In this document: piece by piece, positions 15,162 through 42,690 of the stretch | Numbering within the stretch: position 1 is the stretch's first letter | How the letters are laid out: every line of letters starts with the position of its first letter | NCBI GenBank assembly: GCA_028685185.1 | Contig: JAQUEK010000006.1 | Location: 1 to 43,496 of the forward strand | DNA from: Candidatus Altimarinota bacterium | GTDB taxonomy: Bacteria; Patescibacteriota; Gracilibacteria; BD1-5; UBA2023 | Reading direction: 5' to 3' | Length of the DNA stretch: 43,496 nucleotides | Program-made: the position numbers and the translations under genes | Notes under the pieces: generated by a model | Database searches by the model: none | Seen by the model: the letters and a program-made list of their open reading frames with translations, nothing else | What the model was told of the DNA's origin: nothing

Positions 15162-17153
15162 ATGAAAAAGATCATTATTGGATTATTGCTGTCTGCCTCT
15201 TTCTATCAGGCTAGTGCATGAAATTTCATATATCCTTTTGATAAGGTGGCTAATCCGAAATGCAGATTTTCGAGCTGGAGCAGCTTATGAAGCGAATGCA
15301 AGATTGACCTTCCAAGAATTGCAAATGCCGATTATACCAAATACAAAACTGATTCAACCTATAGGAAAGTATATTCCATACTTTGGGGCGCGACATATAA
15401 TTATTGATGGGATGTCTGATATTGAAGCCATTTATGAGTTGATATAGCTACAAGCGCGGGAACTCCGGTAAGAAGTATCTGAGATTGAGAGGTGGTGAAT
15501 GCCGGTTGGCTTGCCTGATGGTGAAATACAGTAAGCATAAGGCATAGATTAAGCAGCTGAAAGGATATATATTCTAATTATTCACATCTTAACAAGATCA
15601 TAGCAAAAAAATGAACCATAAAATCCGGCGAGACCGTAGGAGAAGTATGAGCTACATGAAACGCATATTGAAACCATCTTCATTTTCAGATCGATGTAAC
15701 GAATCAATCTCATCCATATTGGTATACGAAATGTTCCAAGTGAATCGAGATATTCGATCTTGTGAACAATTGAATGTGCAGGGATTATCTTATGGCGAAT
15801 TCTGTCGATCCTATAGTGTTCCTCGAAAATAACTGACAGTTCCTTGATGTTCAAAGTATAAAGGATAAACAGGAACAAACCAAGAAAATTGAAGGTAAGA
15901 ACATTAAGACAAGGGAGCAGATATTGGATGAGGAAGTTGAAGATTTCATGAAAAGCCATTCTTTTACATTAAGTACATGAGTAAGCTGAGATAATCTTCA
16001 GGTATGACTCAATTATCTTGCCAAGCTAAGGACATTCAGCTATTGAAACACCTTTTCATGAAATCTGCCTGAAAACTGACTTTCATTCGAATATGACAGA
16101 AGTGCATTGAAGATATTTCCTGAAAAGATACTTACGCTTGATGCTTGAGCTAGGGACATAAGAATAACATGATTGAAAAGCTGAAAATTCAATATAAACA
16201 TAAAGCTATGAAAAAAGGTCATATGAATAGTCACTGTAAACCTATATAAGAAATATGAATTTTCCGATCCTACAGATGCTATAATCACTTCAAAAAGCAA
16301 AATATCGCTTCTGGATGAGAAATTGGGAGGTGTTGTATTCAAGACAAAGCTTTGAAGCAAACAGATGTATATTCCCTACAACTGAACATATAGGCTCAAA
16401 TCACTTTCATGAAAGGTGAAGTTCTGCAATATATCAAACAGGGAAAACAAGAAATGCAATAATTATGAGCTTGTGGATGAGCTGATATTCAGATATGAGG
16501 ACACTTATAACTGAGCCTTGATATTCAATATGGTCCCTTTCGACTACATGCCTATAAAATTAGCAGTCATGAAAGACTGAGCAATGAAGCCCATTGCTAC
16601 TACAGGCTATAACATAACCATAACAAATCCGATCGCTTTCGATAAGACATACCTTTACTTCAATGAAAATGTTGAGGCGTTAAAAAAATGATTCATAAAG
16701 CTATATAACTGATATCTTCTTCAGGAAAGGGATATATCATGAAAACAGGTAAAAGAGATACTTAACAATTATCTATCTTATGAGTATCTGAGATCAGGTG
16801 ATAATTTGACTAAAAAGTGAGATATAATAACAAGACTCAAGCAGATGAACAAGAATTTCTCCTCCATAGATGACAATAAGACTATAAGCCGAGGAGAATT
16901 CATCAAGATATTTTTCGATAATCTATGAATATCTATAGTAAAAAACAGCAATAAGGTATTTCTGGATGAAACATGAAATTATAAGGATTATATAACTACC
17001 ATTAGGGAAAAGTTCAATTTCAGCTGGAAGGATCAGTTCTGAATAAGATATTTTCAGCCTGACAAGAGCATAACGATATGAGAAGCCCTATATCTTGCAA
17101 ATAAGATCCATACCGGATTCTGATTGCAGTTTGCTTATAATAAGCAAAAATAA
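15162..17153 (+). CDS. Secreted M23 peptidase with possible SLH-like C-terminus, 663 aa
   Basis: A signal peptide (MKKIIIGLLLSASFYQASAG) precedes a LytM/M23 metallopeptidase domain at about residues 75-190. It has HLGVDIATSAGTPVRSIGDG (zinc H-x3-D), GGNTVSIRHR in shortened form, YSHLNKI, and GNHLHFQIDV with the HxH zinc site. M23 enzymes cut peptidoglycan cross-bridges. A long middle region (about 200-540) of beta-rich, Asn/Lys-rich sequence is unrecognised. Near the C-terminus two stretches resemble S-layer-homology repeats: ISRGEFIKIFFDNLG and FQPDKSITIGEALYLANKI. These would anchor the enzyme to pyruvylated wall polymer. The CsaB-like gene at 32.3 kb fits that idea. The gene ends three bases before the convergent uvrB stop. 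Confidence 0.87.
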
Positions 17154-24498: not shown

Positions 24499-25146
24499 AT
24501 GTGAGAAAAATTCAAGAATAAATATAATACAGGTACAATAAGATTAAAGGGTTTCGATTATTCGGCGGATTGAGGATATTTCGTTACAATCTGTACGAAA
24601 AACAGAGAGGAATATTTCGGAAAGATCATTGATGGTAAGATGATTTTGAACGATGATTGAAGGATTATTGAAAATGAAATCATAAATACAGGGATTATCC
24701 GTGATAATGTGATAATTGATGAATATGTTGTTATGCCGGACCATTTTCATATGGTTTTGATGATTGGATATTCCCGTAATCATAGAGACGCGATTAATCG
24801 CGTCTCTACGATTACGGGAACAATGATAACGACGACGGGTGGTATTAATGGTTGAATTACATGAATATATAATCCAATGTTAAATCCAAATGTTTTATGA
24901 AATATAATCAGACAATTTAAATGAAAATGTACGTTTTTAATCAACAAATCCAAACAAAACAACCATTTCGCCTGGCAATCAAATTATTATGAACATATAA
25001 TTCGGGATGAAAATGAATTATATAGGATCAAAAAATATATAATAGAAAACCCGTTAAATTGGGAATCAAACAAAAAAAATGCCAGAAAATATATACATGT
25101 AGATGTGTTGCATGCATCGCATCTACATGATCAAAATTATTTATAA
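24499..25146 (+). CDS. REP-associated tyrosine transposase (RAYT, Y1_Tnp family), 215 aa
   Basis: A single-strand HUH endonuclease of the kind that moves palindromic REP elements. The product shows SADGGYFVTICTKNREEYFG, then EYVVMPDHFHMVLMIG with the HUH pair (His-Phe-His) at about residues 80-82. Further on are the NIIRQFKGKCT helix, FAWQSNYYEHIIRDENEL, and KKYIIENPLNW carrying the expected catalytic Tyr at about 183. Two palindromes lie within the reading frame, one right after the HUH motif (encoding HRDAINRVST) and one near the C-terminus. Both keep the frame open. The gene uses UGA as Gly. It looks intact, but whether the inserted segments allow activity is unknown. Confidence 0.92.
24771..24820. 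repeat. 50-base palindrome inside the RAYT gene
   Basis: A nearly perfect palindrome (one mismatched pair in 25). The outer arms are TTCCCGTAATC / GATTACGGGAA, the inner arms AGAGACGCG / CGCGTCTCT, around ATTAAT. The inner core matches the palindrome at 1275-1314 apart from one compensated pair and one centre mismatch. In single-stranded DNA it would form a long hairpin, the substrate type of RAYT enzymes. Confidence 0.9.
25096..25129. repeat. Second palindrome at the 3' end of the RAYT gene
   Basis: Arms CATGTAGATG and CATCTACATG enclose a TGCATGCA-containing centre. The GTAGATG...CATCTAC arms resemble the outer arms of the other two palindromes. It is fully inside the coding frame and encodes the C-terminal residues before the stop. 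Confidence 0.75.
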
Positions 25147-38698: not shown

Positions 38699-38773
38699 GC
38701 CAATGTAGCTCAGTGGTAGAGCACAGGATTCATACCCCTGCGGTCGGTAGTTCAATTCTACTCATTGGCACCA
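38699..38773 (+). tRNA. tRNA-Met (elongator, anticodon CAU)
   Basis: Acceptor GCCAATG / CATTGGC, D-arm GCTCAGTGGTAGAGC, anticodon stem CAGGA-TTCATAC-CCCTG, T-arm with TTCAATT, discriminator A and encoded CCA. The GATTCATACC anticodon arm resembles elongator tRNA-Met. A lysidine-modified tRNA-Ile2 is the alternative for a CAU anticodon but fits less well. Confidence 0.9.
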
Positions 38774-38819: not shown

Positions 38820-40475
38820 TTATATCGCGGAGTAGAGCAGTGGTAGCTCGCAAGGCTCATAACCTTGAGGTCGTAGGTTCGATTCCCACCTCCGCAACCA
38901 TAAAGGAATTAACACATTTTTACAATAATACAAAGGACTGTTTTCGGCTATCGGAAGCAGTTTTTTGTTGGTTAAAGTTTGGTTAGAGTTGATGTATTTG
39001 AGTTTGGTTAGAGTTTTTGGTTTAACTCTAACTTTCATACGGTCGATTATGGCTTCTATTTGAGAAGAAATCCACATTAAAAATATCTTATTTTTCTTCA
39101 AATCGCTTTGGTTAGAATAATAATTGATAGTCTTATCTTTTTTCATTTCTAATTCAAAAATTTCTTCTTTGTATTTATTATTAAGCATAGAATAATTTTC
39201 ATCTCCTATTTTTCACTCCATATATTTTTCTGTAAGGTTGATTTGTTTATTCTTCATTTCACTAATTCATACATCAATTTCTTTAAGTTGTGTATTATCT
39301 TGTATATTTTGATTATTTTTAAATTCATTCATTCCCTCCTTTATTTTTCTAATCATTTCAGAGCTTATTTGATATTTCTTAATTTGTTTTATTACCTGAA
39401 TTAATAAGCTTTTTTCCTGTAAAGGTTTTTCATTGCATTTTGTAGGAAAATTTGCGGATATTCCTCTACAACATCAGTAATATGTAAGATTTTTTGATTT
39501 TATGTGATATCAAGTTATGGATCTTCCGCAAGAACACTTAAAGGCTCATTGAAAAAGAAAATATTTCTGATTTCTCCTTCTTTTGTTATCTTGGTTTTTA
39601 AGATTAAGATATTTATTCCTGTTATCTTTTATGTTTTTGACTTTCAGAAATAGCTCTTCTGATATGATAGGTTCAATATCTAATTTGTATCTTTCTTCGA
39701 AAATTCCCGCAGTTTTAGCTCAAAAATATGGTAGTTCGTATGGTTTAAGATTCCATCTCATAGTTTTAAAGCCTGTAAATATCTCATGTCAAAGTATACT
39801 TTCTATAACTTTGTTGGTAATAGGCGTTCAATTTTGCCTTGTAAATCACTCTTTGATTAATTTTTCTGATAACGAAAGATAAGTATATTGTCAGCTCGAA
39901 TAAAGTTCAAATGTTCTCTTTATGAAATTTCATCTTTCAGGATCAATAATTGCTTTATTTTTTGCTATTTTAATATATCAGATAGGAATTACACTTCAAG
40001 AATGTTTTCATTCCATCATAGCACGTCTCATTCATAGTTTAGATTTAAAACTTAATTCTTCACTATATAATTGAGCTAAATTTCTTGAATTTCTTATTGA
40101 AAAATTTCCCATAGGTCCAGTCATTCAATAATTTTCTGTAATAGCCACGACCTGAACTCATCTCTTTTCGCAAAGATTTTCTAATGTGATAAAGTCGCTT
40201 CAATTTCTGCTTAATCTATCAAGTTTAAAAACAAGAAGATAATCGATTTTGTTTGTTGATATATAATTTAAAACTTCATTAAAGATTTTTCTTCAAATCT
40301 TCGGATTATATTTAATACTCCCTTTGAATGCAGAGTGTTTCTCTTCAAATTCTTTTAAAATATCAATACCCTGCTCTTGTGAATATCTCCTAATCTGAAA
40401 TATCTGCTCCTTAATACTCATTTCTGTTTGAGTATGTGCTCACGAAATACGAGCATAAGTTATTGCTGTTTTCAT
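38820..40475 (-). CDS. Large serine recombinase, 551 aa, C-terminus antisense to tRNA-fMet
   Basis: A site-specific integrase/excisionase of the large serine family. The N-terminal resolvase domain starts MKTAITYARISG with the nucleophilic Ser, then IKEQIFQIRRYSQEQGIDIL and LLVFKLDRLSRNGSDF with catalytic Arg residues. A recombinase domain (about 160-300, GFTRQNGTPITNKVIESIL) and a zinc ribbon (FKCSCGRSITGYH, then YGCCRG and a further Cys) follow, then a Lys/Glu-rich coiled coil. The last 45 residues are encoded antisense to the tRNA terminator and the whole initiator tRNA (for example GYEPCELPLLYSAI), so the true C-terminus was probably replaced on integration. Its start lies within the end of the upstream recombinase gene. 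Confidence 0.9.
38826..38900 (+). tRNA. Initiator tRNA-fMet (anticodon CAU)
   Basis: It shows the C1-A72 mismatch of bacterial initiators (CGCGGAG with CTCCGCA), D-arm GAGCAGTGGTAGCTC, anticodon loop CTCATAA on a short CAAGG/CCTTG stem, T-loop TTCGATT and ACCA end. The whole gene lies antisense within the 3' end of the serine recombinase reading frame. Confidence 0.96.
38936..38967 (+). terminator. Hairpin terminator downstream of the initiator tRNA
   Basis: An ACTG-TTTTC arm pairs imperfectly with GGAAGCAGT around ggctatc, followed by T6. It lies 36 bases after the tRNA CCA end, so it probably ends the tRNA transcript. It is inside the antisense recombinase frame. Confidence 0.6.
38967..39034. 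repeat. Cluster of short direct and inverted repeats near the element end
   Basis: GTTTGGTTAGAGTT occurs at 38977-38990 and again at 39002-39015. A degenerate copy (GTTGGTTAAAGTTT) precedes them, and an inverted copy (GGTTTAACTCTAAC) follows at about 39021-39034. They lie in the 3' end of the recombinase gene, a plausible place for recombinase-binding or attachment sites. Confidence 0.55.
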
Positions 40476-42301
40476 AATGATGATTTGTTATGATTGTAGA
40501 CAAATTGAAATTCTCAAAGAAGCTTCACTTTTAAAAGCTGTTTTTGATATCATCATTCAGTTTTTCTATCTTTTGGATGTCTATATCTGTTTTCTTCGCT
40601 TTTTTCTTCATCAAGGACTATTTCATTCAGAAGAATATCCACTACATCCTTTTTTATATCTTTTCAAATATCTTTGTATCTTTGTATTATTTCATATGTT
40701 CTTTCTATATATATTTTAAGGTTTGCCTCAATCTTTTTTCCTTCTGCTTCAAGTAATTCTATTTCATCTTTAATATCTTTTATTTCTTTTTTTATTCAGG
40801 GAATTATATTAAACAACAAAATTTCGGTATTAGCGTTCATTTTATCATAAATGTTATTAACATTCACTAATTCAGTCTCTATCTTATCAAGTTTTCTTTC
40901 CTTACCAGCAAGCCTTATTTTATGTGATTTGATACCGTCATTTATTCTTACAAGTTCTTCTTTTTTTACTAAATCAAAAATAACTTCATATAATGGTCCT
41001 ATATAAATATATTTTATAATTTCCTTATAAATAAGATCATCGATTTGTTCTTCAAGAATTACTGATTTTCTATCACATATTAAAGAATTGGTTCTGGCAT
41101 TTTGACACATATATCTATATTTATTCCCATTTCATCATCTTTGACCTGTTATATCTCATCAGCACACACATTTAAGAACTCCTGAATATAAAGCTCAATC
41201 AAATACTCATACTTCTATTTTTCTATGTTGTCTGTCCATATTTTTCAGAAGAACACTATCATAAAGACTATCATCAATTATCCTTAATTTTGGAGTTTCA
41301 AAAATAAGTATATTCCTTCATTTCTTGATGTCTTTTGGTCTTTTATAGAAAGAATGCAATATTTTTAAATCATCTTCAAATTTTATATCTATAATTACAA
41401 ATCTTTTTCAATTATATCTAATTCTTTCCTTATTTAACAGTATTTTACTTATTGTCTTCTCATCTCTCGGTAAATAATAATGTTCATAAGATCTTTTTTT
41501 TCACCTATTCAGACTATCACACTCACTATTAAACTCTTTAAAAATTGTTTCAATTATATTTTTATGCTTATATCACTCATAATTAAGTTCAAAAATCCTT
41601 TTTATGACTTTCGCGTGAAATGGATTAACAATTATTTCACTTTTCTTGTCTCAATGTTTTTTTATTGTATATCAATACTGTATAGAGCTTCATCATAAAT
41701 AGGCATAAGCATTTCTGTTTATTACGAATAGTCCGTATTGTGTAGCCTTACTACTCTGTCTATCACTATAAAAGATGGATTCACTGCAAATCATTCTGAA
41801 AAAATACATTCATGCAGCCGAATCGACTATGTTTTCTTTGATAGATATGAACTTATATCACAGTTTATATAATTTTTCTACTTTGATAAAGTCTTCTCAA
41901 TTTCGGGCCATTCTGGAAATATCGAAAAATATAACTCATCAATACTTTCTTTGGAGACTTTGACTATCTTTTTCCATCAAGCTAATCATTGTTTCAAATT
42001 GAACTCTTTTTCAGCTTACATATCAAGATTTTTCCTCTTCAAATATATCACTTAATTTTAAATTATTATCTCGTGCATACTTTTTTATTGCCTTATTTTG
42101 GGCATCGAAAGTTAATTCCGAATTTCCAGCTTTTGATTGTCTTGTATATCAGAGATATTCAAGAGGCTTTGAATTTTCACCTGCTTCGATATAATCATCC
42201 AATTCTTCTTCATCAACTTCGACATTATCAAATTCTCAATCATTTCATTCTTCATTCTCATCATCTTCGAAATCTATGTAGTCCGCTTTTAAATTACTCA
42301 T
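40460..42301 (-). CDS. Second large serine recombinase, 613 aa
   Basis: An acidic N-terminal extension of about 50 residues precedes LEYLGYTRQSKAGNSELTF with the nucleophilic Ser, DAQNKAIKKYARDNN, and VIFFDISRMARNGEDF with catalytic Arg. A recombinase domain (KSEIIVNPFHAKVIKRIFEL, then ISKILLNKERIRYNG) follows, with a zinc ribbon (LYSGVLKCVCGGDITGQRGG, then YRYMCQNARTNSLICDR) and a long coiled coil (about 430-540). It overlaps the next recombinase gene by 16 bases and begins within the end of the small membrane protein gene. Conserved glycines are UGA. The pair may act together, as in elements that need two recombinases. Confidence 0.9.
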
Positions 42302-42690
42302 AGTTATATAGTTATTTTATTTAAATCTTTTTTTCTTTCAGTGTATAAAGCAAACCATATCAATAAATACAGAAAAATTAGAATAATTGTAAATGTCAAA
42401 CTTTGTTCCGGATTTAGCTTAATGATTATTCATGAACCCGGAATTCATATGCTTCACGTTGACGGTGTATGAATTGTTGAATATTTGTATCAAAACATTT
42501 TAAAGGACAAGAGAGTAAAAATAATAAACCCAAAAAGCCCTTTTGATTTAAAAAGCGTTATTCATTTAGACAACATACTAACCCTTTGGTTCCTGATATT
42601 TTCAATTATTTCTTTCTTTGAATAAGGAATACTTTCTTCTAATTTTGAACTATCAAAAATATCTGACTTATATTTATCTTTTTTATCCAT
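42289..42690 (-). CDS. Small two-helix membrane protein of the element, 133 aa
   Basis: A polar N-terminus (MDKKDKYKSDIFDSSKLEES) is followed by a hydrophobic segment near residues 55-70 (LFGFIIFTLLSFKMFGY), an extracytoplasmic stretch of about 30 residues, and a second segment near 97-117 (LTFTIILIFLYLLIWFALY), ending with a basic tail. It overlaps the start of the second recombinase by 13 bases, so they are coupled. No family was recognised. Confidence 0.65.

Follow-up and report, generated by a model that had tools for sequence, protein, structure and literature searches.

The window, i.e. the 43,496-nucleotide stretch of DNA that was analysed, raises the question of why a large serine recombinase gene should run antisense through an entire initiator tRNA gene, and whether the C-terminus encoded there is exchanged when the element carrying the gene integrates. 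The features involved, in window positions, are the following:

38699..38773, + strand: tRNA-Met (CAT), upstream, outside the element
38820..40475, - strand: large serine recombinase A, integrated state, 551 aa, translation table 25 (TGA = Gly)
38820..38900, - strand: host-derived C-terminal tail of recombinase A, WLRRWESNLRPQGYEPCELPLLYSAI and stop, complement of tRNA-fMet
38826..38900, + strand: tRNA-fMet, an initiator tRNA-Met (CAT), serving as attB/attL
38894..38902: GCAACCATA, common to the tRNA end and far ends M'2 and M'3, with the crossover inside
38930..38968, + strand: element-borne terminator hairpin for tRNA-fMet, within the recombinase A coding sequence
38970..39016, + strand: GGTTARAG repeats at 38970, 38981 and 39006, putative recombinase-binding repeats
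40460..42301, - strand: serine recombinase B, second of the pair, 613 aa, its end overlapping the start of A
42304..42690, - strand: small element ORF, 128 aa
43310..43496, - strand: C-terminal part of a 505-aa protein that runs on into the genome's own contig C7

The long genes of the window are open solely under table 25, indicating that the genome reads TGA as glycine, and a genome-contig search gave Candidatus Gracilibacteria as the nearest named relatives. The recombinase A ORF contains 20 such TGA codons; under table 11 it is open only over its last 122 residues, so the full gene requires TGA = Gly. Its Pfam matches (Resolvase PF00239, 2e-25; Recombinase PF07508, 5.9e-6), a zinc ribbon match (PF13408) at 0.0021, below the curated cut-off, and long helices modelled at residues 372-479 confirm, at the level of sequence and predicted fold, a large serine recombinase with catalytic domain, Recombinase domain, zinc ribbon and coiled coil. 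Residues R9, S11, R87 and R90 are invariant in an alignment of six relatives, as are C314, C316, C335 and C347. The domain search returned serine-type domains only and no homology to tyrosine recombinases. The closest named NCBIfam matches are XisF (6e-18), CcrB (1e-15) and CcrA (2e-13), all far below their cut-offs; against the curated Ccr models recombinase A scores 50-57 bits, where 700-900 are demanded. In the AlphaFold model (mean pLDDT 69.5) residues 508-551 are disordered, at about 30-38, so that confident modelling stops short of the crossover, at about residue 508.

The earlier note had described a frame that stays open through the terminator and the whole tRNA to a TAA six bases beyond it, and the ORF and tRNA coordinates bear this out. 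Read in its own direction, the frame passes the terminator hairpin and then the complement of the entire tRNA-fMet, and it stops at 38820 (TAA at 38822-38820). The element supplies 525 of its codons and the antisense tRNA with its leader the final 26, and the integrated protein ends with NVLIPL followed directly by WLRRWESNLRPQGYEPCELPLLYSAI. The overlap by itself is not beyond chance. Under code 25 none of the three frames antisense to this tRNA-fMet is interrupted by a stop, and across 99 distinct tRNAs 59-82% of such frames are open. An open antisense frame is thus unremarkable, and the informative fact is that recombinase A itself supplies no stop ahead of the 3'-CCA of the tRNA. Relatives G026 (C43; 46% identity) and G020 (C22) overlap the tRNA likewise, in an identical register, and have the tails WLRRYESNVRPQGYEPCELPLLYSAI; these homologues also read on into the tRNA in the integrated state, and no conserved stop was seen upstream of 38901 among homologues. 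Of 18 tRNA-convergent recombinases 16 read through CCA, and 15 of these have TGG, the complement of CCA, in phase 0; the loci counted came from similarity searches and are not a random sample. Between tRNAs the number of residues past CCA varies from 3 to over 60. The T-stem of the window's tRNA-fMet (GTAGG...CCCAC, 38874-38891) contains an A-C mismatch, which is also present in G012; in most relatives the stem is fully paired.

The end of the element coincides with the CCA of the tRNA. The sequence behind CCA, hairpin included, is conserved among element-bearing genomes, and terminators at other fMet loci are unrelated to it; therefore the element begins at CCA and brings the tRNA its new terminator. 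The hairpin (-19.9 kcal/mol, z -5.8) keeps its position in G026 and G020 with a different stem sequence. The GGTTARAG repeats recur at cassette ends (C7:16711, 16736, 18091, 18174 and 18903) and are possible recombinase-binding sites. The recombinase pair likewise recurs in G026 and G022, with B directly upstream of A. Elsewhere in the window, an ORF at 24499-25146 resembles, by eye, a REP-associated/IS200-like Y1 transposase. Contig C15 of G024 breaks off a single base behind the CCA of tRNA-fMet, as if only part of the population carried an insertion at that point.

If integration exchanges the C-terminus, as the earlier note had proposed, the other end of the element should hold the part that was left behind. 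In the window's own genome no further copy of the tRNA 3' end was found, but such a search is the wrong test since serine recombinases share a short core only. The continuation of the element is probably contig C7, because the 505-aa ORF runs uninterrupted over the join between it and the window contig (C2), which overlap by 9 bp. There, three tandem far ends (M'1, M'2 and M'3) finish with GCAACCA at 16655, 18120 and 18932, and behind the last lies a strong terminator, as expected of a displaced native one. These sites delimit a recombinase element of ~21.2 kb, which carries a type I restriction system, and two cassettes of 1465 and 812 bp without a recombinase. M'1 shares the stretch GCAACCATAAAGG with the tRNA end. 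From the complement of CCA, in the frame of recombinase A, the far ends encode a conserved peptide of ~48 residues (WLPKGGKSLTKTLAVECDMEIPDEFFELNPEIDREEYEEELLGKFDKL, then stop) and a copy of it at 72-73% identity; both remaining frames are interrupted by stops. When far end and recombinase end were joined in silico the product was in frame, with a conserved tail unlike the tRNA-derived one; the predicted forms would be told apart by peptides from ECDMEIPDEFFELNPEIDR (free) versus WESNLRPQGYEPCELPLLYSAI (integrated). The proposed swap thus gains support from both the far end and the C-terminus that the free form would encode. M'1, the nearest far end of the window element, has a 1-base deletion relative to M'2 and M'3, so that its frame is lost some 28 codons in, and this element's own free form may therefore be damaged.

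A peptide search of 99 genomes placed the 48-aa peptide behind tRNA-fMet in G008 (two copies) and at G020:C16, with a further copy, lacking CCA, in G011:C15. At G020:C16:518 CCA is followed by a terminator resembling the native fMet terminators of relatives, and we read this site as the attR that matches the attL at G020:C22, both ends of one element being seen. Joined in silico, they give NDGILN, then WLRFAELGRTKIIASPSAFEIDEEFLKMNPHTSKEGFEQMLWERWESGKKFYLGRRNGK and a stop. The peptide appears to be maintained as protein: for the intact copies M'2 and M'3 dN/dS is 0.28 in the recombinase frame versus 1.1 and 2.1 out of frame, with substitutions at codon positions 1/2/3 of 6/7/18, and 0.26 versus 1.25 and 1.67 for the G008/G020 pair, these peptide comparisons being based on 80-144 bases each in genomes that are mostly metagenome assemblies.

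Recombinases of two further, unrelated groups have their own far-end peptides. In the second group the recombinase of G022:C40 enters tRNA-Cys in a different phase (phase 1), and the peptide at its far end (LVNVPRLASKNLLICFSFKRKKLGKAK, then stop) lies exactly in that phase. In six far ends of the C40 type that frame alone is stop-free to the end of the peptide, and its pN/pS is 0.40 versus 1.65 and 0.63 in the other frames; for a pair in G011 pS is 0.39 and pN 0.02. The third group uses the standard code. Its members G159 and G218 have in-phase tails of 19 residues (WQAAFAKIRTDFSTSGCGG and WWGAFAKIRTDFKTNRRGG, each then ending in a stop) with a common stop position and the common core AFAKIRTDF. 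A search for more tails of this group returned inverted pairs in G159 and G161: far-end peptide copies lie inverted about 3-5 kb apart (G159:C1 10444-10569 and 13404-13514; G161:C23), one of those in G159 just upstream of the recombinase gene, possibly marking an invertible segment.

Out-of-phase junctions at G022:C29 and G045:C23, which set a recombinase against a far end of another type, weigh against the proposed exchange. Both were considered as free forms and rejected: at G022:C29 the far end of another group is out of phase, pointing to insertion behind another cassette rather than to a circle (attP), and at G045:C23 recombinase and far-end peptide do not share a phase. The recombinase end at G022:C29 is found again at a tRNA-Leu in G022:C31 (239/240 bp), i.e. 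one end stands at two CCA targets (G022:C31 5364-5447 and G022:C29 1-62). This seems to reflect either relaxed site choice or a strain-mixed assembly; in the former case the G022 recombinase could use several CCA-type targets. A sequence model, R1, returned only noise from the window's genome, because the element there has a different end. No relative was found among viral contigs, and genome contigs yielded only the two known G026 and G022 records and one remote match. Far ends of the elements in G141 and G108 were not found; the sole stretch shared with them is a tyrosine-recombinase-like gene. A gene of the Phage_integrase family (tyrosine recombinase) lies inside the window's element at C7:13688-14314, and the G141 and G108 elements contain a similar sequence; it is possibly a third recombinase of the system.

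Far ends are also found without a recombinase. The C40-type end closes small recombinase-less elements behind tRNA-Lys in G010, G024 and G040, and these cassettes keep the coding end too. Behind tRNA-Glu of G011 three cassettes stand in tandem (G011:C4 6005-8000, L150), holding an HD-domain hydrolase and then two related small cassettes, one of them matched to an ASCH domain. Such cassettes start with a terminator-like hairpin after CCA and end by re-creating (C)ACCA; those at L150, L112, L113 and L154 end in a conserved 85-bp motif that finishes with ACCA. This motif was considered as a CCA-ended RNA and rejected, as it has no Rfam match and marks the end of elements behind several tRNAs. A role at the DNA level may contribute to the conservation of cassette ends.

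Read directly from the DNA are the crossover at the 3'-CCA of tRNA-fMet, the lack of an element stop before it, the in-phase far-end peptide and the element-borne terminator. We consider it probable that the free circle encodes the conserved C-terminus and that integration swaps in the antisense-tRNA tail, thereby disabling or redirecting the enzyme and locking the element in place. In this mechanism excision would join both ends in a circle and so yield a full recombinase A gene with its conserved C-terminal domain, whereas integration would leave that domain at the far end and put the disordered antisense-tRNA tail in its place. The domain would most likely be needed for integration (attP x attB). 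Full-length enzyme could return after excision, from another circle, or via a cassette inserted between tRNA and recombinase, which would lend its in-frame end to recombinase A, because small cassettes carry the same end. The element's terminator, directly behind CCA, would keep the tRNA functional. The presence of the circle in the cell, translation of the tails and a role of their exchange as a state-sensing switch are inferred. A wider proposal, to which we give a chance somewhat short of even, is an integron-like cassette system run at tRNA 3'-CCA ends by large serine recombinases. Every cassette end would carry a spare in-frame C-terminal domain, and the tail of the enzyme would report whether it is free, next to a tRNA or next to another cassette.

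The C-terminus might change as a tolerated by-product of an attachment site at the 3' end of the gene, with a core enzyme indifferent to its tail. That the modelled fold stops before the crossover, leaving residues after about 508 disordered, and that tail length past CCA varies so freely between tRNAs is what such indifference would look like. However, a dispensable tail would need no conservation, and the free-form tail is conserved in frame (dN/dS 0.26-0.28) as a distinct peptide for each recombinase group; we regard this alternative as unlikely. The ratio over the last 50 codons before CCA, 0.88 with few synonymous changes, implies some other constraint on the DNA of that stretch, a point against the exchange of a functional C-terminus.

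Conservation of the far ends could also be that of a DNA attachment-site signal, the in-frame peptide being accidental. Although the ends share the DNA repeats GGTTAGAG and are kept by cassettes that lack a recombinase, this seems quite improbable, as in the first two groups, which differ in phase, no frame but that of the recombinase is open at the far ends, substitutions cluster at third positions, and the stop position is common within the third group. Antisense frames of tRNAs are among the entries of AntiFam. This is a collection of spurious translations of this general sort (PMC9710616), and with antisense tRNA frames so often open (59-82%), the ORF could be spurious, the true recombinase ending earlier and its tRNA part being an annotation accident. 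Against this, homologues with 42-46% identity show no stop from the conserved core up to CCA, their register is identical, and a single phase accounts for 15 of the 16 read-through cases; we give this reading hardly any weight. The exchange of a functional C-terminus remains the reading we prefer.

How serine integrases choose between insertion and excision is a central question, to which the usual answer is a separate directionality factor. To our knowledge, a switch by exchange of the C-terminus is described from tyrosine integrases only. A C-terminal addition can control serine integrases, since a directionality factor fused to them changes their direction (PMC5737554). The main text of a large survey of serine recombinases (PMC10083194) contains no mention of tRNA, and a search of open-access papers turned up no serine-recombinase case of tail exchange, which does not prove that none has been described. 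If the proposal holds, a C-terminus exchanged by the reaction itself would be a built-in sensor and would extend the switch of tyrosine integrases to a second enzyme class. It would bring to light a cassette system in candidate-phylum bacteria whose genomes are tiny, and would explain why many recombinases of these bacteria seem to read through tRNA genes, something that annotation would dismiss as an artefact.

Int of the Myxococcus phage Mx8 is a tyrosine-type phage integrase. In the passage of PMC6070905 that treats Mx8 Int/IntR (citing Tojo 1996 and Magrini 1999), attP lies inside int and integration produces a new 3' end with altered activity, a 'molecular switch'. Recombinase A is similar in that its crossover lies within the coding sequence and both products are in frame (the free one in silico), but it belongs to the large serine recombinases, is paired with recombinase B and targets a tRNA 3'-CCA, and its free-form tail is also present on separate cassettes and in tandem arrays. 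In archaeal suicidal (SSV-type) integrases, which are tyrosine enzymes, the attachment site lies inside the gene and integration disrupts it (PMC8371274). Those enzymes are split into inactive N- and C-terminal fragments, whereas the core of recombinase A stays complete and only the tail after about residue 508-525 is exchanged. CcrA and CcrB of the staphylococcal cassette chromosome (SCC) and XisF are the closest named NCBIfam matches to recombinase A, and SCC likewise has a two-recombinase module. The target of SCC is rlmH, and its ccr genes lie inside the element; here, in contrast, the gene crosses the junction and the target is a tRNA. As in tRNA-targeted integrative elements, the insertion is at a tRNA 3' end, and C7:18932 and G020:C16:518 are followed by terminators. 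Integrons and tycheposons (tRNA-targeted cassette islands) share with this system tandem small cassettes and a conserved end that re-creates the target. They use tyrosine recombinases, whereas the ends described here match serine recombinase elements and encode the tail of the recombinase.
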